Assembly: GCF_013299165.1 (NCBI RefSeq)
Contig: NZ_JAAFKD010000008.1
Coordinates: 124,001-188,000 of the forward strand
Source: Microcoleus sp. bin38.metabat.b11b12b14.051
GTDB lineage: Bacteria; Cyanobacteriota; Cyanobacteriia; Cyanobacteriales; Microcoleaceae
DNA: 64,000 bases
Direction of reading: 5' to 3'
The notes under the pieces were generated by a model. It worked only from the letters and a program-made list of their open reading frames with translations. It was not told the origin of the DNA and did no database searches. Both the position numbers and the translations under genes were made by a program. Below are positions 37,506-62,121 of this stretch, one piece after another (position 1 is the stretch's first letter; each line of letters opens with the position of its first letter).

Positions 37506-37508
37506 GTG
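37492..37508 (+). promoter_or_regulatory. psbC ribosome-binding site and GTG start in duplicated psbD tail
   Basis: GGAGG at 37492-37496 lies nine bases before the GTG start at 37506. Both are part of the sequence that also reads EVLPRGNAL-stop in the psbD frame. The corresponding stretch at the true psbD end has GAAG and CGCGGT, so it lacks both the strong site and the GTG. Confidence 0.85.
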
Positions 37509-38885
37509 GTAACGCTCTCTAATTCCTATGCAAGCGGTCGCGACCAAGAATCCTCCGGATTCGCTTGGTGGTCAGGCAACGCTCGTTTGATCAATCTCTC
37601 AGGCAAACTGCTGGGCGCACACGTCGCTCACGCTGGTTTGATCGTGTTCTGGGCCGGAGCAATGACTTTGTTTGAAGTCGCTCACTTTATCCCAGAAAAA
37701 CCCATGTACGAACAGGGCTTAATCTTGATGCCCCACGTCGCTACATTGGGTTGGGGCGTAGGCCCTGGCGGTGAAGTCATTGATATCTTCCCGTTCTTCG
37801 TAGTCGGCGTTCTGCACTTGATTTCATCTGCTGTCCTCGGTTTGGGCGGCATTTATCACGCTGTTCGCGGCCCCGAAGTTCTCGAAGAATACTCTTCTTT
37901 CTTCGGCTACGACTGGAAAGACAAAAACCAGATGACCAACATCATCGGCTATCACCTGATTTTATTGGGTGGCGGCTGCTTGCTGCTGGTTGCTAAAGCC
38001 ATGTTCTTCGGCGGTGTCTACGACACTTGGGCTCCGGGCGGCGGCGACGTGCGTATTATCACGAACCCCACTCTGAATCCGGCTGTGATTTTTGGCTATT
38101 TGGTTCGCTCTCCTTTCGGTGGCGAAGGCTGGATTGTCAGCGTCAACAACATGGAAGACATCATCGGCGGTCACATCTGGCTGGGCCTGATTTGTATCGC
38201 TGGCGGTGTTTGGCACATTTTGACCAAGCCTTTCGGCTGGGCTCGCCGCGCCTTAATCTGGTCTGGCGAAGCTTACCTGTCATACAGCTTGGGCGCTTTG
38301 TCCCTCATGGGCTTCATCGCTTGCTGCTTTGTCTGGTTCAACAACACTGCTTACCCTAGCGAATTTTACGGCCCGACGGGCCCGGAAGCTTCTCAAGCGC
38401 AAGCTTTGACCTTCCTGATCCGCGACCAACGCTTGGGTGCTAACGTCGGTTCTGCACAAGGCCCTACCGGTCTGGGTAAATACCTGATGCGCTCTCCTAC
38501 TGGCGAAATCATTTTCGGCGGTGAAACGATGCGTTTCTGGGATTTCCAAGGCCCTTGGTTGGAACCCTTGCGCGGTACTAACGGTTTGGACTTGAACAAA
38601 ATTAAGAACGATATTCAGCCTTGGCAAGCTCGCCGCGCTGCTGAATACATGACTCACGCTCCTTTGGGTTCTTTGAACTCTGTGGGCGGCGTGGCAACTG
38701 AAGTTAACTCGTTTAACTTCACGTCTCCTCGTTCTTGGCTGTCCTGTTTCCACTTTGTGATGGGTTTCTTCTTCTTAATCGGCCACTTGTGGCACGCCGG
38801 TCGCGCTCGTGCGGCTGTCGCTGGCTTTGAGAAGGGTATCAATCGCGAAAATGAACCAGTGCTGGCTATGCCTGATTTAGACTAA
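37506..38885 (+). CDS. psbC: Photosystem II CP43 chlorophyll apoprotein
   Basis: The 459-residue CP43 inner antenna, which also gives ligands to the Mn cluster through the large lumenal loop. Seen: [18 protein letters not shown] near the start, six hydrophobic helices with paired His, and the lumenal [20 protein letters not shown] carrying the conserved Glu and Arg. The end [10 protein letters not shown] is typical. Start GTG 37506, preceded by GGAGG. It follows psbD in the same direction and ends in a strong terminator. Confidence 0.98.
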
Positions 38886-47139: not shown

Positions 47140-47482
47140 TTCTACTTTCCTGCTAGGGTTGACTGAGAATCGATCGGGAATCCACTCTAATTTAACTCAA
47201 AATCGGTCGCACAGTGCTAAAATATCACGACTGTTAATAAGTCCTAACAGTTACCGGTATTGCCTGGGACTGAATGGCCATGGCTTGAATGGCGCGACTG
47301 AATGTCTCCGACTAGACGGCAGGATATCAACCAATACCGTTGGGTTAAGACGGTCTGGGAGTCAAAACGATGGGATAAATAGACACGGAGATTGCTGTCA
47401 TCTCACACATCGCCAAAGAAGAGCGTTCATTTCTTCGGACAAGCCTAACCCAAGCGTATTCGGATATCAACAACAAGTTTTG
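47140..47482. other. Gap upstream of RNA element, possible transposon remnant
   Basis: A rightward frame within about 47260-47500 encodes a Gly/Arg/Ser-rich stretch (LNGHGLNGATECLRLDG) reminiscent of the tails of transposon-encoded TnpB/IscB-type nucleases, and it ends next to the RNA element. This likeness is weak. The SPFH promoter must lie in the first 100 bp. Confidence 0.35.
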
Positions 47483-47912
47483 TCAGTAACTCAGCCCTAA
47501 AGGGACTGAGCTTGCAAGAGAAATCAAGCAAGCTATACTGACCAGTCTAAGTCTTAACTGACTACGTTATTTTGGTCACGACACCCTGTGGATGCGAAGC
47601 CAGTCCCCTGCTCTGTCGCTAGTCGTTAAACAGTTCTAAAGTCACTGGAACGGTGCTGCTAGCCTAACAAGCCCTTATAACATTGACGAGGCTCACATTA
47701 CCCCGTAAGGGAGCCCAACAAAGGCAACCATTATGCGTACAGGACTGGGAGATTTGAAACGGTAACTGTCCCGTTGAAAGTGCAACACAACAGCACACCG
47801 AATTAACCAGTTCCAAGGCGGTAATGGAAAGATTCAACGCGGTTGAAACCGCCTGGTCGCTTCCCTAGGAAGGACTAAAGTCGCTGAGTTTCCCACTTAC
47901 CGTATTTCTTTT
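47483..47912 (+). ncRNA. HEARO/omega-RNA-like structured element, copy 1
   Basis: About 430 bp, clearly homologous to 50033-50437. Seen: left hairpin CTCAGCCC-TAAA-GGGACTGAG; a core with CACGACACCCTG, GGATGCGAAGCCAGTCCCC and TACCCCGTAAGGG; a conserved TGTCCCGTTGAAAGTGCAAC; a right hairpin; then a 20-30 nt tail that ends at an ATGA. The ACACCCTG...CAGTCCCC segment resembles the IscB omega RNA (GCACCCUGG...CCAGUCCCC). HEARO RNAs are the known cyanobacterial form, often present without their IscB/IsrB nuclease, and are reported to sit directly before ATGA/GTGA. No nuclease ORF adjoins. Family assignment is from memory of the consensus. Confidence 0.72.
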
Positions 47913-48680
47913 ATGAAAAACGATCGAGAGTTTCGCCTTTTCAAACCTTTTACCTGGATGGGCCCAAGCATTGTGGCGGCGGGAATATGGTATGTGGCTG
48001 TTGTCCAACCCGCACAAGCTGCATCGAGCACAGTGCAAAATTCGCCAAACTTGCAGTCGCAAAACTCGCAGCCACCGCGCCGAGGGCCCGCAGTGCCCGA
48101 AGTTATATCCTACGAGATGAAGGGAGACGATCTCAGGATTTGCAAGCAGCAAGGCAACTCCGAGAAAAAATGCGAAGTTGTAGGAAAAGGCTACACGGTG
48201 GGTTTGAGAACTGCTAACGACCTTTACGCCCAAGGAAATCTTGTCAATGCCGAAGCTTTGTACCGGCAATTAATCGCTCGCTATCCCAAACAAGGGGATA
48301 TTTATTACAAGCTAGGAACTCTGCTCTCGGGGCAAGGTAAAATGAGCGATGCGATCGTCCAATTCCAAAAAGCAATTGAAGTCAACCCGAAACACGCCAA
48401 AGCTCACAACGATTTGGGCGTGGCGATGGCAAGTCAAGGAAAGTTGCCCGAAGCGATTGTGCTGTGGAGACAAGCTGTTAAAATTAATAGCCAATATCCC
48501 GATGCTTTAAATAATTTGGGAGTCGGTTTGTACCAGCAAGGAACCAAGGAAAACCAAGCAGAGGCAGTAGACAGCCTCAAAAAAGCGAAGGAGTTATTTC
48601 TCAAGCAGGGCAGAACTCAAGCGGCTACTAGAGTCGATCGAATTTTAGAAGAAATCAACTCCCAGTCGAGCGGCTCTTAA
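47913..48680 (+). CDS. TPR-repeat protein, exported or membrane-anchored
   Basis: A 255-residue protein. The N-terminus has a hydrophobic segment (PSIVAAGIWYVAVVQPAQAA) resembling a signal peptide or anchor. A Cys-containing linker follows (KGDDLRICKQQGNSEKKCEV), then about four TPR units (ANDLYAQGNLVNAEALYRQL, YYKLGTLLSGQGKMSDAIVQ, HNDLGVAMASQGKLPEAIVL, LNNLGVGLYQQG). It is a protein-interaction scaffold of unknown partner. ATG 47913 directly follows the RNA element; no separate ribosome site is seen. The next gene is aroB, convergent. Confidence 0.82.
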   Translation: MKNDREFRLFKPFTWMGPSIVAAGIWYVAVVQPAQAASSTVQNSPNLQSQNSQPPRRGPAVPEVISYEMKGDDLRICKQQGNSEKKCEVVGKGYTVGLRTANDLYAQGNLVNAEALYRQLIARYPKQGDIYYKLGTLLSGQGKMSDAIVQFQKAIEVNPKHAKAHNDLGVAMASQGKLPEAIVLWRQAVKINSQYPDALNNLGVGLYQQGTKENQAEAVDSLKKAKELFLKQGRTQAATRVDRILEEINSQSSGS

Positions 48681-48715
48681 AATCATCCATAGCCGATAGA
48701 TCAGAAATAAAAAAA

Positions 48716-48773
48716 GGTTTGTAGTGAGGACTTTAGTCCGCATTTTCTGAGGACTTTAGTCCTCACTACAAAA
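48716..48773. repeat. GTAGTGAGGACTTTAGTCC palindrome
   Basis: Dispersed palindrome with arms GTTTGTAGTGAGGACTTTAG and CTCACTACAAAAC; its second core is in the same orientation as the first rather than inverted, so it is a rearranged copy. Lies between the convergent TPR and aroB genes. Confidence 0.85.
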
Positions 48774-48862
48774 CAACGATCGAACATTGACAGAAAAAAC
48801 TGCTCGGGCGATCGGCATAAATCGACCTTGTGGAGCGGTGAAACACGCCCATAAACCTTAAT

Positions 48863-49957
48863 TTAAAGCATTTCCTTCAAAACTCGTAAAATCACATCTC
48901 CGTCCACGCGATCGCTCACAGCAGCTTCGCCCAAACGCACCGGCAGCACAAAGCGCACCTTGCCATCCTGCACCTTCTTATCAAGTTGCAAAGTATTCAA
49001 GATTTCCTCAACATCGACACCTGCGGGCAACTTAGCAGGCAAACCCGCTTTTTCAATTAAAGCAGACTGGCGGCGATCGCACTCAGCATCCCACATTGAG
49101 AGCTCCACAGCCAAGCGGCTAGAAGCAGCCATCCCAATTGCCACACCTTCGCCGTGATTGATGACCTTGTAATTAGTCAAACTTTCTACAGCATGACCGA
49201 TCGTGTGACCGTAATTCAAAATCGCCCGCAAACCCGACTCCTTCTCATCCTTGCTTACCACCTCAGCCTTAGCTTGACAAGATCGGCTCAAAATTTGGGC
49301 CAACAAATCCGCCTTCACGTAGCGCATTTGATCCAAACGCTTGCAATTCTCCAACTTCCCGAACAATTCAGCATCCCAAATCACCCCATACTTGATGACT
49401 TCCGCCATCGCCGAACGAAACTCGCGCGCCGGCAGAGTTTTGAGAACATCCGGGTCAATCAAAACCAAACGCGGCTGATGAAAAGCCCCGATCAAATTCT
49501 TCCCCGAAGGATGATTTACCCCCGTTTTGCCGCCAATAGAAGCATCAACCATCGCTAGCAGCGAAGTCGGAACCTGCACCACATTAATTCCGCGCAACCA
49601 AGTCGCAGCCGCAAAACCCGTCATATCGCCAACCACCCCGCCGCCCAAAGCCACCATTGTCGAGGAACGTTCCAAACGGTTAGCCAAAGCCGCATTGTAA
49701 ATCTTCTGGATCGAATTTAAAGTTTTGTATTGTTCGCCCGGTGGTAAAATGCAGGTACTGACTTCCAGGCCGGCCGATTCGAGGGCTGCGGTGGCTCTTT
49801 CGCCGTAGTGCCGAAAAATCGACTGATTTGAGACCAAAAGAACTTTTTTGCCCAAACTTAGATCGCCCATCAGGGTGCCGAGCTCATCTAAGCCGCCCGA
49901 TCGCACGCAAATATTGTAAGATTGTGGGCCCAAGTCAACTTTAATTATCGATTGCAT
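48863..49957 (-). CDS. aroB: 3-dehydroquinate synthase
   Basis: A 364-residue enzyme of the shikimate pathway, converting DAHP to 3-dehydroquinate with NAD and Zn. Seen: [40 protein letters not shown], the metal ligands in VIKYGVIWD (Glu), [11 protein letters not shown] and [10 protein letters not shown] (His). Full length. ATG 49957. It diverges from the second RNA element, with its promoter in the 75 bp between. Confidence 0.97.
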
Positions 49958-50032
49958 ATTTATCTAATTTAGATTATGGATTTTAGATTATAGTTCTTAT
50001 AGGTCTTCTTATTGATTATTTTGGAGAAATTG

Positions 50033-50437
50033 CAGTCAGAAACCTCAGCCTAAACGCTTGAGGCTTGTAGAGAAATCTAACAGGCCGTTCTGACCAGCCT
50101 AAGACTTTCGAGGTCTACGTTTTTTGAGTCACGACACCGGGCGGATGCGAAGCTAGTCCCCTGCACTGTCATTTGTAGTTAAAAAGTCTTAAGGTCACTG
50201 AGACAGTGCTACAAGTCTAAAAAGCTTTTAAAACATTGGCGAAGCTAACTTTACCCCGCAAGGGGGCTCGAAACCGAGCAAAACACTATGCGTAAAGGGC
50301 TGCAAGATTTTAAACGGTAATTGTCCCGTTGAAAGTGCAACACAAAAGTACACAGAGTCAAGCAGTCCCAAGGCGGTAGTGATTCAAGAACAATGTAAAG
50401 CCGTCCTCAAAAGACGGAGTTTCAACCCATTTTTCTG
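50033..50437 (+). ncRNA. HEARO/omega-RNA-like structured element, copy 2
   Basis: About 405 bp, aligning along its full length with 47483-47912. Left hairpin CCTCAG...CTTGAGG, core CACGACACCGGG, GGATGCGAAGCTAGTCCCC and TACCCCGCAAGGGGG, conserved TTGTCCCGTTGAAAGTGCAA, right hairpin CCGTC-CTCAAAA-GACGG, tail to an ATGA. Several differences from copy 1 keep pairing (AGTC/GACT becomes AGAC/GTCT after GACCAGYCTA; CACTG/CGGTG becomes CACTG/CAGTG). No nuclease ORF follows; instead the petL-like gene begins at the ATGA. Confidence 0.72.
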
Positions 50438-50539
50438 ATGACTCTTACGGGAACAATAGCTTATTTTGGAATTTTCGGCGGCATGGTCGGCTTGGCGACA
50501 GTGCTGATGTTTGGTTTACGGGCTGTCAAATTAATCTAA
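50438..50539 (+). CDS. petL: Cytochrome b6-f complex subunit PetL-like
   Basis: A 33-residue hydrophobic peptide: a short polar start (MTLTGT), one transmembrane helix (IAYFGIFGGMVGLATVLMF) and the end GLRAVKLI. Length and the closing basic/KLI pattern match cyanobacterial PetL (31-33 residues), a small subunit that stabilises the b6-f complex. Call rests on resemblance, not a search. The ATG is directly at the right end of the RNA element, so its native upstream region has apparently been replaced and no ribosome site is obvious. Confidence 0.6.
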   Translation: MTLTGTIAYFGIFGGMVGLATVLMFGLRAVKLI

Positions 50540-59933: not shown

Positions 59934-60779
59934 ATGTCAAACTGTCCAGTGTGCGGTGCCCAATACATAGAAGAAAAATTAGATTTTTGCTCGACTTGCG
60001 GCTGGGATTTGACGCCATACCCGCAGCGGGCTAAGCCTTCCAAAACTTATTTAAAACAAGAACAAGTTAGATTGCAGTGGGCAAAACAAATGTGGGAATC
60101 GGCCCGCCACCAACAAAATTTGTCAGCCAGATTTGACGAATTGCAACAGGAATTGCAGCAAGGCGCGATCGCCCGCACGTACCTGCAATCTCAGTTAGAA
60201 TGGGTTCTGTACCGCCTCGAACAACTAAACCCGGAATTTATAACCACCACTCTACTGCGGTTGGACGAGAAAATCGCCGCCTTACCCGATACAACTCCGG
60301 CTATCTCGGAAGTGGGGATGGATTACCGACAACTGACAAAGCTGTTAGAAACCGGAAAATGGCGCAAAGCAGATGAACACACTTGGGAAATCATGCTGCA
60401 AATCGCCGTCAGGGAAGATGAAGGCTGGCTGAGTACCGCCGATATTGACAGCTTTCCTCCTACAGACCTTCGCACGATCGACCAACTTTGGCAACGCTAC
60501 AGCAGCGGACGCTTCGGGTTGACCGTGCAGCAGCAGATTTGGGAAAGTACCGGCAGGCAATACACTGAATTGTGCGATCGAGTCGGCTGGCGAGTCAAGG
60601 AAAATTGGAAATATTACAGCGAGCTCTCATGGGGCGAAAATGCACCTCCAGGACACCTCCCCGTCACCGCATGGAGACAGCGCGCCTGTTATGGCGCCGG
60701 TAGACTCACCGCAGCCGAAAACTTTGCCCGCATCGCTGCGAAACTGGCAGGATCAGCGATCGCTGATCCTCCGAAATAA
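59934..60779 (+). CDS. GUN4-domain protein with N-terminal zinc ribbon
   Basis: A 281-residue protein. The N-terminus has a zinc ribbon (CPVCG ... CSTCGW). A helical/coiled region follows (about 40-115), then a GUN4 domain: MDYRQLTKLLETGKWRKADE, DSFPPTDLRTIDQLWQRYSS, RFGLTVQQQIWES, PPGHLPVTAWRQ. GUN4 proteins bind protoporphyrin and assist Mg-chelatase; this multi-domain form is not the canonical Gun4 and may be a porphyrin-responsive regulator. ATG 59934. It lies just upstream of the intron-bearing tRNA gene. Confidence 0.86.
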   Translation: MSNCPVCGAQYIEEKLDFCSTCGWDLTPYPQRAKPSKTYLKQEQVRLQWAKQMWESARHQQNLSARFDELQQELQQGAIARTYLQSQLEWVLYRLEQLNPEFITTTLLRLDEKIAALPDTTPAISEVGMDYRQLTKLLETGKWRKADEHTWEIMLQIAVREDEGWLSTADIDSFPPTDLRTIDQLWQRYSSGRFGLTVQQQIWESTGRQYTELCDRVGWRVKENWKYYSELSWGENAPPGHLPVTAWRQRACYGAGRLTAAENFARIAAKLAGSAIADPPK

Positions 60780-60828
60780 AAAATTCAAAATCGACATTAG
60801 CTGCTATAATCGAAACGGTTAAATAACT

Positions 60829-61152
60829 GGGGCTGTGGCTCAGATGGATAGAGCAAGCGCCTCCTGAAGAATCGGGCACCCTGCGAGGAAACTCTGGGAG
60901 TGAATGTGGTCAAACTCAAGGAAGCCTAAGTCTGATGGCAGATACGGTAATCTTGAGCCAAGCTTTATCTAAATTCTGTTTAGGTAAGGAAGGTGCAGAG
61001 ACTGGCTTTAGGAAGTAAAAATCATCATACCTCCTAAACATACGGCCACCACCTAAAGGCTGCAAGCCCACGGTGAAGGAATAGTCCGGAGAGTGGGGAA
61101 ACTCACACAAATCTGAAGCGCTAGGTCGCCGGTTCGAACCCGGCCAGTCCCG
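60829..61152 (+). tRNA. tRNA-Arg(CCU) interrupted by a group I intron
   Basis: Exons 60829-60865 and 61116-61152 fold as a tRNA: acceptor GGGGCTG/CAGTCCC (one G-U), D arm GCTC/GAGC, anticodon stem AGCGC/GCGCT with loop CTCCTAA (anticodon CCU), T arm CCGG/CCGG with TTCGAAC, discriminator G; CCA not encoded. The exons join between U36 and A37 in the anticodon loop. Cyanobacterial tRNA-Arg(CCU) genes with group I introns are established. Confidence 0.93.
60866..61115 (+). other. Group I intron in tRNA-Arg(CCU)
   Basis: 250 nt, starting after a U (exon end CTCCT) and ending in G, as group I introns do. The 3' part has GAAGGAATAGTCCGGAGAGT, resembling the conserved R/S core. No homing endonuclease ORF is inside. 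It should self-splice. Confidence 0.88.
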
Positions 61153-61369
61153 TTAAAAATCAAGAACAATTAAAAGCAGAAGGGTAAATCCTAAGTTTTG
61201 TCCTTCTGCTTTGCATATGCGTTAACCTGTATATTCAATCCAAAATCTAAAATCTAAAATCCGAGACCTTTCTTTAATTTTTAATTTTTAATTCCTGTTA
61301 GTGGGTTGTACGTGCGGTATTTTTTGTTATGGTTCCTGTGTCAAGTAAATAAATTTTTTATAGGTTTAG

Positions 61370-61960
61370 ATGTGGTTAAGAATCAGTTTAAACAAGTTCC
61401 GTTACAAACGTTTGAAGGCTTCGCGCCCTTTTTGGTTCCTAGTAGGGCTTTTGATTGCCTGTTGGTTTGGCTTTGGGCAGCTTAAGAACGAATTTCAGAG
61501 ACCCCAAGCTTTGTTGGTTCTGGGTGGGGCTACGGAGCGAGAGGTGTTTGCCGCCAAATTTGCTCGATCGCACCCTCAATTGCCAATTTGGGTGTCTTCT
61601 GGGAGCAATCCCGAGTTCGCAAAATGGGTATTTTCAGAAGCTGGAATTAAGTCCGATCGCCTGCACTTAGATTACAAAGCAGTGGATACGGTAACAAATT
61701 TTACCACTCTGGTAGATGAACTGAAAGAGCGAGGCATTGAGAGCGTGTATCTGATCACTTCTGACGATCATATGCGACGAGCTCAGATTATCGGTGAAAT
61801 CGTGCTCGGCAGTCGAGGCATTAGTTTTAAGCCTCTGGCAGTTCCATCTGGGCGAACCCCCGAACCATTGCAAAAAGCTGTTCGCGATGGCGCTAGAGCT
61901 ATTATGTGGCTGACTACCGGTTATACCGGTGCTGACTTCACCCAAGCCAGGATTGAATAG
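61370..61960 (+). CDS. YdcF/SanA-family (DUF218) membrane protein
   Basis: A 196-residue protein with one N-terminal membrane helix (PFWFLVGLLIACWFGFG) and a DUF218 domain: ALLVLGGATERE, PIWVSSGSNPEFA, LDYKAVDTVTNFTTLVDELK, VYLITSDDHMRRA. The family includes E. coli SanA/YdcF/ElyC, which affect the cell envelope; no activity can be assigned. ATG 61370. Single gene. Confidence 0.85.
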   Translation: MWLRISLNKFRYKRLKASRPFWFLVGLLIACWFGFGQLKNEFQRPQALLVLGGATEREVFAAKFARSHPQLPIWVSSGSNPEFAKWVFSEAGIKSDRLHLDYKAVDTVTNFTTLVDELKERGIESVYLITSDDHMRRAQIIGEIVLGSRGISFKPLAVPSGRTPEPLQKAVRDGARAIMWLTTGYTGADFTQARIE

Positions 61961-62121
61961 ACAAGACAAAGATCAGACGACAGTTGAAACCACGGCTACA
62001 AAAACAAATTCCGCCGACGCGGAATGAAGAAAACAACGTAACCACGGAGGCGCGTGAGTGTTTGTGTAGGCGCGAATTCTATTCGCGCGGTGTTCAACTC
62101 CCGTCTTTTTCAAGCAGCAAA
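61961..62121. other. Short gap with GTTGAAACCACGG fragment
   Basis: Contains GACAGTTGAAACCACGGCTA, related to the repeats at 7690-7800, and GCGCGAATTCTATTCGCGCG (about 62071-62090), a perfect-looking palindrome close to the 3' ends of two convergent genes. Confidence 0.55.

Follow-up and report, generated by a model that had tools for sequence, protein, structure and literature searches.

Introduction

HEARO RNA (Rfam RF02033) is the omega RNA of IscB. In omega RNAs of the IscB kind, the guide is the host sequence that lies just 5' of the RNA core. HEARO elements that lack an open reading frame (ORF) and are inserted before ATGA or GTGA were reportedly described by Weinberg et al. in 2009. 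Non-autonomous derivatives of IS200/IS605 transposons of the PATE/MITE type are likewise short and ORF-less, and are inserted before a fixed tetranucleotide without target duplication. For IsrB nucleases, PMC9581776 reports that DtIsrB nicks targets with TTGA and ATGA, and that the IsrB proteins of Crocosphaera and Dolichospermum accept NTG. A TnpB-guided gene drive of insertion sequences on plasmids has been demonstrated by experiment, according to PMC11870625.

Here we describe two HEARO elements in a 64,000-nt stretch of the genome of Microcoleus sp. bin38.metabat.b11b12b14.051 (hereafter the window), together with their family in the same genome (G000) and its relatives.

Results

Two complete HEARO elements without a nuclease gene

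Covariance searches with Rfam cmscan identified two HEARO cores on the forward strand of the window, both spanning the full model (1–211) and scoring above the curated cut-off of 83 bits (E = 3.9e-30 for copy 1 and 1.6e-29 for copy 2; Table 1). The sequence-only reading had described two HEARO/omega-RNA-like segments of the same orientation and moderate identity, ~2.5 kb apart, and the description held in both respects: a repeat search returned direct repeats 2552–2555 bp apart that are 79% identical over 153 nt and, in the 110 nt that follow, 82% identical, so that the likeness of the two copies reaches beyond the Rfam core. Its end coordinate, 50437, was exact, while its start, 47483, lay one base after the true start. 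Chance resemblance to HEARO is ruled out by the covariance scores together with the 35 genomic copies. Other known RNAs in the 3' part of the elements gave only sub-threshold matches in an E-value scan of Rfam (CRISPR-DR10, 21.9 bits against a cut-off of 39; mir-335, 19.5 bits against 64).

The claim that no IscB, IsrB or transposase lies beside the copies was also borne out among the ORFs of at least 80 aa between or beside them. The neighbours are a TPR-protein gene, a gene that we take to be aroB-like, and petL. An HNH-endonuclease ORF is absent from the interior of both copies and the nuclease gene is present in two siblings. The window copies are filed here as non-autonomous derivatives of IscB/IsrB OMEGA transposons.

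Table 1 Coordinates of the two elements and adjoining features within the window
Feature	Position	Strand	Basis
Copy 1, complete stand-alone HEARO element, 431 bp	47482–47912	+	5' end from Rfam match; 3' end from sibling-common end motif directly before ATGA; 22/22 readable relatives without full element at the same ATGA
Omega-RNA (HEARO) core, copy 1	47482–47701	+	RF02033, 144.3 bits
Presumed guide-encoding 5' flank, copy 1, 20 nt	47462–47481	+	Presumed from the position of the guide in omega RNAs of the IscB kind
ATGA formed by the TPR-gene start codon and the A behind it, presumed target-adjacent motif	47913–47916	+	255-aa ORF from 47913 with TPR repeats; published IsrB target-adjacent motifs include ATGA
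Copy 2, complete stand-alone HEARO element, 403 bp	50035–50437	+	Both ends set by ungapped junctions, 26/28 relatives
Omega-RNA (HEARO) core, copy 2	50035–50254	+	RF02033, 141.8 bits
Presumed guide-encoding 5' flank, copy 2, 20 nt, petL leader	50015–50034	+	Last 16 nt identical at 18/26 empty sites, all 20 nt at 5/26
petL, start codon directly 3' of copy 2	50438–50536	+	Pfam PF05115, E = 9e-11; NCBIfam NF008824 above its cut-off

Other features of the window were recorded in passing. A near-perfect 25-bp palindromic repeat (48718–48772; arms 88% complementary, 5-nt spacer) lies between the TPR and aroB-like genes. The Rfam model of IsrR (antisense to isiA) matches the reverse strand at 37914–38100 with 157 bits, opposite a 459-aa photosystem-antenna ORF (37506–38885) that adjoins a psbD-like ORF and is presumably psbC, a paralogue of isiA; the match is probably a cross-match to this paralogue. 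A group I intron at ~60830–61153 (+) scores 56.1 bits against a cut-off of 50, and on visual inspection its flanks resemble the two parts of a split tRNA-Arg (anticodon CCT); ARAGORN reported no tRNA in 60000–62000.

Element ends and empty sites

Of the 29 genomes of the genus, G000 included, 28 contain an aroB-like locus. At petL, joining position 50034 to 50438 yields a sequence that aligns uninterrupted with 26 of 28 relatives, at 78–95% identity and without a gap at the junction; the two unreadable relatives have no aroB match (G022) or no petL match (G010). Since the junction is unambiguous and no target is duplicated, copy 2 comprises exactly the interval given in Table 1. The same pattern was observed for a 375-bp element at gatB (L014), where 20 of 25 relatives align across the junction and the remaining five only downstream of it. 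No HEARO match was found at gatB in any of these 25 relatives, and the profile matches the locus of G000 alone. Insertion at a fixed tetranucleotide without target-site duplication was thus found at both the petL and the gatB junctions.

Copy 1 is likewise private to G000, since no full element occupies its ATGA in the readable relatives. Its empty site is not exactly restored, because the relatives carry ~7–10 extra bases before the ATG. In G006, an independent element precedes a GTGA located 40 nt upstream of the TPR gene start. When the ends of elements were inspected for hairpins, the expected stem was predicted at three of the four ends examined and none was better than shuffled sequences (z = -0.6 to -1.3). 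In two relatives (L058 in G028 and L070 in G005), the petL leader lies ~300–480 bp farther from the aroB-like gene than in most; the HEARO profile detected no element at these petL loci, and the extra spacing likely reflects some other insertion.

Copies 1 and 2 each form the sense-oriented 5' leader region of a gene, as would be expected if the RNA had been domesticated and retained before petL and the TPR gene for regulating them. That explanation is highly improbable given the insertion polymorphism described above, in which petL is empty in nearly all relatives and the TPR start carries a full element in none that could be read; moreover, the genes downstream of family members have no common function.

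HEARO elements and IscB genes in the genome and the genus

The G000 genome (7.07 Mb, 64 contigs) contains 37 HEARO matches at E <= 0.001, of which 35 are above the cut-off, each with at least 94 bits. RRXRR proteins (IscB/IsrB) are encoded at four places. Two of these are intact 423-aa proteins with an HNH domain, located directly behind a HEARO core (contigs C11 and C16), and IscB proteins are among the solved structures matched by one of the two. The IscB-bearing elements measure 1607 and 1609 bp and have 5' and 3' ends in common with the stand-alone copies. A full IscB locus elsewhere in the genome, a prospect raised by the sequence-only reading along with further copies, is therefore present twice. 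At the third place (L034 on G000:C29), a 316-aa IsrB-like protein without HNH adjoins a diverged, sub-threshold HEARO of 31 bits, and at the fourth the reading frame is broken by stops. RRXRR matches of a low-scoring class similar to that of L034, with frames of ~340–350 aa, recur in many congeners. The HNH ORF that gives HEARO its name is absent from most copies in the genome, and the curated family is defined by the RNA. The family thus combines a conserved omega-RNA core with a 3' end that is likewise conserved, and the variable part between them is occupied by IscB or by filler without coding sequence.

Across the 29 genus genomes, there are 411 HEARO matches (2–42 per genome) and 127 RRXRR matches, fragments included (1–11 per genome). 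HEARO outnumbers RRXRR in 27 of these genomes and equals it in two, and the raw counts correlate with a Spearman coefficient of 0.54 (p = 0.0025), uncorrected for relatedness and assembly quality. The single-contig genome G027, which has only a partial RRXRR match, contains seven HEARO matches, two of them above the cut-off and the best with 113 bits. G015 and G016 each contain a 425-aa RRXRR frame beside a 97-bit HEARO, and their best HEARO matches reach 97 and 119.5 bits; low scores despite an RRXRR frame indicate that a low score is not specific to the lack of IscB. In the order, HEARO was detected in 78 of 148 sampled genomes and in 50 of 80 genera. A search for a Y1 transposase with HEARO-type ends found none: the genome has 10 Y1_Tnp matches, none of them within 1.5 kb of such ends. 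One loose match to an end motif, at L035, has no ATGA behind it.

Recent and repeated insertion

Ten copies in the G000 genome, 374–375 bp in length, are 98.1–99.2% identical to their nearest sibling, and none of them contains IscB. This recent burst is the best evidence that the nuclease-free form itself moves. Another pair, L004 and L005, is 97% alike. The idea that either window copy arose recently by duplication of its neighbour was rejected, as the nearest sibling of copy 1 is L003 (82.9%) and that of copy 2 is L007 (79.2% over 351 nt; coverage-weighted identities). Copies 1 and 2 are lineages of their own, older than the burst.

At several start codons, one and the same ATGA is used by distinct elements in separate genomes. 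This was observed at a gene that we take to be mnmA in G011 and G013, for the pair L155/L160 at one gene, at the TPR gene (copy 1 in G000 and a mini-element in G008), and at a presumably SqdB-like gene. The start codon of this last gene is empty in the window (51703, +), and G008 (L116) and G016 (L165) each have a HEARO element of their own before its ATGA. The trigger factor gene carries elements that are 78% alike in two genomes, which may stem from one old or two separate events. At two loci common to G000 and G011 (L001/L093 and L008/L101), identity is 100% over the element and its flanks (250 nt upstream and 400 nt downstream), far exceeding the 98% identity of the AroB proteins of these genomes; recent transfer or locally very close ancestry would account for it.

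Four of the 29 genomes contain mini-elements of 53–54 bp (L236, L237, L238 and L239), in which the 5' end of a HEARO element is fused to the 3' end without omega RNA, at start codons. One is common to G001, G017 and G018; the other, of 53 bp, sits before the TPR gene in G008, at exactly the ATGA that copy 1 uses. These mini-elements may be deletion remnants. If they are not, elements consisting of little beyond two ends would be what is expected of passive, MITE-like sequences, for which a transposase acting in trans recognises the ends only and the stand-alone omega RNA is an idle passenger; the recent burst, by itself, also requires only a transposase. The RNA itself argues against such passivity. 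Among the 35 aligned cores of G000, changes on both sides with pairing kept were found in 25 of 62 predicted pairs, a tally that counts changes inherited within subfamilies several times and thus provides support rather than a number of events. Pairing is kept through many such changes in copies that lack IscB, and all 35 copies remain above the cut-off by a margin of at least 11 bits. We regard the passive alternative as rather unlikely.

Guide match and start-codon placement

The presumed guide of copy 2 lies in the petL leader and is matched over its last 16 nt or in full at most of the empty petL sites (Table 1); in the aligned empty alleles, ATGA comes next. This ATGA at the 3' flank fits the target-adjacent motifs given for IsrB in PMC9581776 (NTGA/ATGA and NTG), bearing in mind that those belong to IsrB and the intact proteins of this genome are IscB.

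The position of the elements relative to genes had not been remarked on in the sequence-only reading. Among the 34 copies of G000 with a 3' end, ATGA follows directly in 33 and ACGA in one (L025). End motifs were derived from these copies themselves; L002 (no 3' end) and two sub-threshold matches were dropped, L025 was left out of the ATGA-only counts, and the 3' end of L021 was read from the sequence, outside the regular-expression matches. At 26 of the 33 ATGA junctions, an ORF of at least 60 aa begins with this ATG; for intergenic ATGA in the window, counted outside long ORFs, the figure is 19 of 107 (binomial tail 3.5e-14, with some counted loci common by descent and the sites thus not fully independent). 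This length criterion misses the 33-aa PetL, the 38-aa PsaI (matched over 1–38 of 38) and what we take from its sequence to be a response regulator cut by the locus end, so that 29 of the 33 look like true starts. The other four copies (L001, L003, L012 and L049) have no recognisable start codon, as is the case for several copies of relatives. N-terminal or near-N-terminal matches to curated families downstream include L18, GatB, LysS, trigger factor, YbaB, NirB, a Clp protease subunit and HetZ-related protein 2.

A similar distribution was obtained for 80 loci of 24 congeneric genomes, taken from among the best-scoring matches listed of the 411, with several IscB-adjacent loci passed over in the selection. 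Fourteen had no end motif and seven a weak motif without NTGA. The remaining 59 ends were followed by ATGA (53, one of which was scored as CTGA, as the words overlap) or GTGA (6), and 45 of these 59 junctions, drawn from the same best-scoring matches, open an ORF of at least 60 aa. Loci common by descent are L120/L127 among the relatives and, between G000 and G011, the two pairs named above. Among 29 loci from other genera, ATGA or GTGA comes directly after an end motif in four, of which three have the length of an IscB element and an ORF cut by the locus end.

Placement at start codons could simply result from a four-base motif combined with selection against gene-breaking insertions, with no preference for start codons and no role for promoters, an account that is compatible with mobilisation in trans. 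ATGA is both a target-adjacent motif and a common start context, the four copies off recognisable starts and the GTGA insertion of G006 fit this account, and of the four stand-alone copies in G016 whose end could be read, two lie at long ORFs and two do not. The low proportion of intergenic ATGA that open an ORF, as given above, argues against it. So do the 300 bp upstream of the insertions in G000, where 33 other ATGA in sense and 31 in antisense (opening an ORF of at least 60 aa in two and four cases) carry no elements; the corresponding numbers for the relatives are 43 and 51 (four and one). In addition, all ten copies of the recent burst are at ORFs, each of at least 67 aa. Motif and selection by themselves are thus a possible but somewhat doubtful explanation. 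Replacement of the Shine–Dalgarno sequence was considered as a reason for the placement and gave nothing firm: SD-like words are present in 6 of 33 flanks in G000 and 18 of 59 in relatives; within the element ends, the counts are 3 of 33 and 0 of 59, respectively. The literature searched yielded nothing on start-codon placement of HEARO, and the likely founding papers fall outside it.

Discussion

These results suggest that the two window copies are, on balance of the evidence, non-autonomous IscB-type (IS200/IS605-like) transposons that are served in trans and whose guides match empty sites, an explanation that we consider fairly probable. Such copies retain the omega RNA and both ends and lack the nuclease gene, and their movement and upkeep would depend on proteins encoded at other loci of the genome. 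The guide would be the host sequence immediately 5' of the element, with the ATGA of the 3' flank as target-adjacent motif. IscB carrying such an RNA would cut the empty allele only, which would favour retention and spread; with the RNA of copy 2, it would recognise the empty petL alleles and not the filled one. The stand-alone guide-RNA character put forward in the sequence-only reading is supported, and the term 'trans-mobilised' stays an inference that draws on the IscB-less burst, the private insertions with empty sites and the few, low-scoring copies in G027.

Besides the HEARO scores, the empty sites, the burst, the kept RNA pairing, the placement at ATGA and start codons and the guide match at petL, two further points count for this explanation: both intact IscB genes reside within elements that have the same two ends as the stand-alone copies, and G027 keeps only two of its seven HEARO matches above the cut-off, without a complete RRXRR match. 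Counted against it are the location of all 10 Y1 matches away from HEARO-type ends, hairpins no better than shuffles, the inexact site of copy 1, the four copies off start codons, the low scores that also occur in G015 and G016, and the mini-elements that sit at start codons without omega RNA.

The promoter of the host gene probably transcribes the guide and the omega RNA as its own 5' leader, since the insertion sites are mostly start codons. For a stand-alone element with no known promoter upstream of the guide, a sense position between leader and start codon would place its transcription under the host promoter, and this is our proposed reason for the start-codon bias. A bolder extension, which we put forward tentatively and consider less than even in likelihood, is a dispersed guide array, in which one or two IscB proteins would be common to more than 30 stand-alone omega RNAs. 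Most of these would lie behind the leader of a gene, immediately before the start codon, and would be transcribed from host promoters, each such mRNA carrying a guide against its own empty start site. If so, it would represent multi-locus homing directed at start codons, with the leaders of petL, psaI, rplR, gatB, lysS and tig doubling as guide precursors.

The family lends itself, as a natural experiment, to asking whether OMEGA nucleases work in trans with stand-alone guide RNAs. The material for it comprises base-exact filled and empty petL alleles (G000 and 26 relatives), the nuclease-free burst of ten copies and a congener with no complete IscB match. Start codons of housekeeping genes are favoured to a degree that can be measured, and the four-base target motif does not obviously predict this preference.

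ORF-less HEARO before ATGA or GTGA is reportedly known already, and this sequence context may have been remarked on earlier. Possibly new are the start-codon preference as measured here against controls, the sets of filled and empty alleles, and the parallel insertions. Against HEARO RNA as curated in RF02033, each copy scores above the cut-off along the entire covariance model, but the HNH-endonuclease ORF is missing from both. Like PATE/MITE-type derivatives of IS200/IS605, they are short and ORF-less and precede a fixed tetranucleotide without target duplication; unlike these, HEARO copies carry a conserved omega RNA and lie at start codons at a much higher rate than intergenic ATGA do. With IscB/IsrB OMEGA elements, they share the core and the two ends of the IscB-bearing elements of the same genome, as well as an ATGA flank like the IsrB motifs in PMC9581776, but they contain neither nuclease nor transposase. 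The logic proposed for them, in which a guide matches the empty site and biases inheritance, is that of the TnpB gene drive in PMC11870625; the nuclease there is TnpB, whereas here it would be IscB acting in trans.
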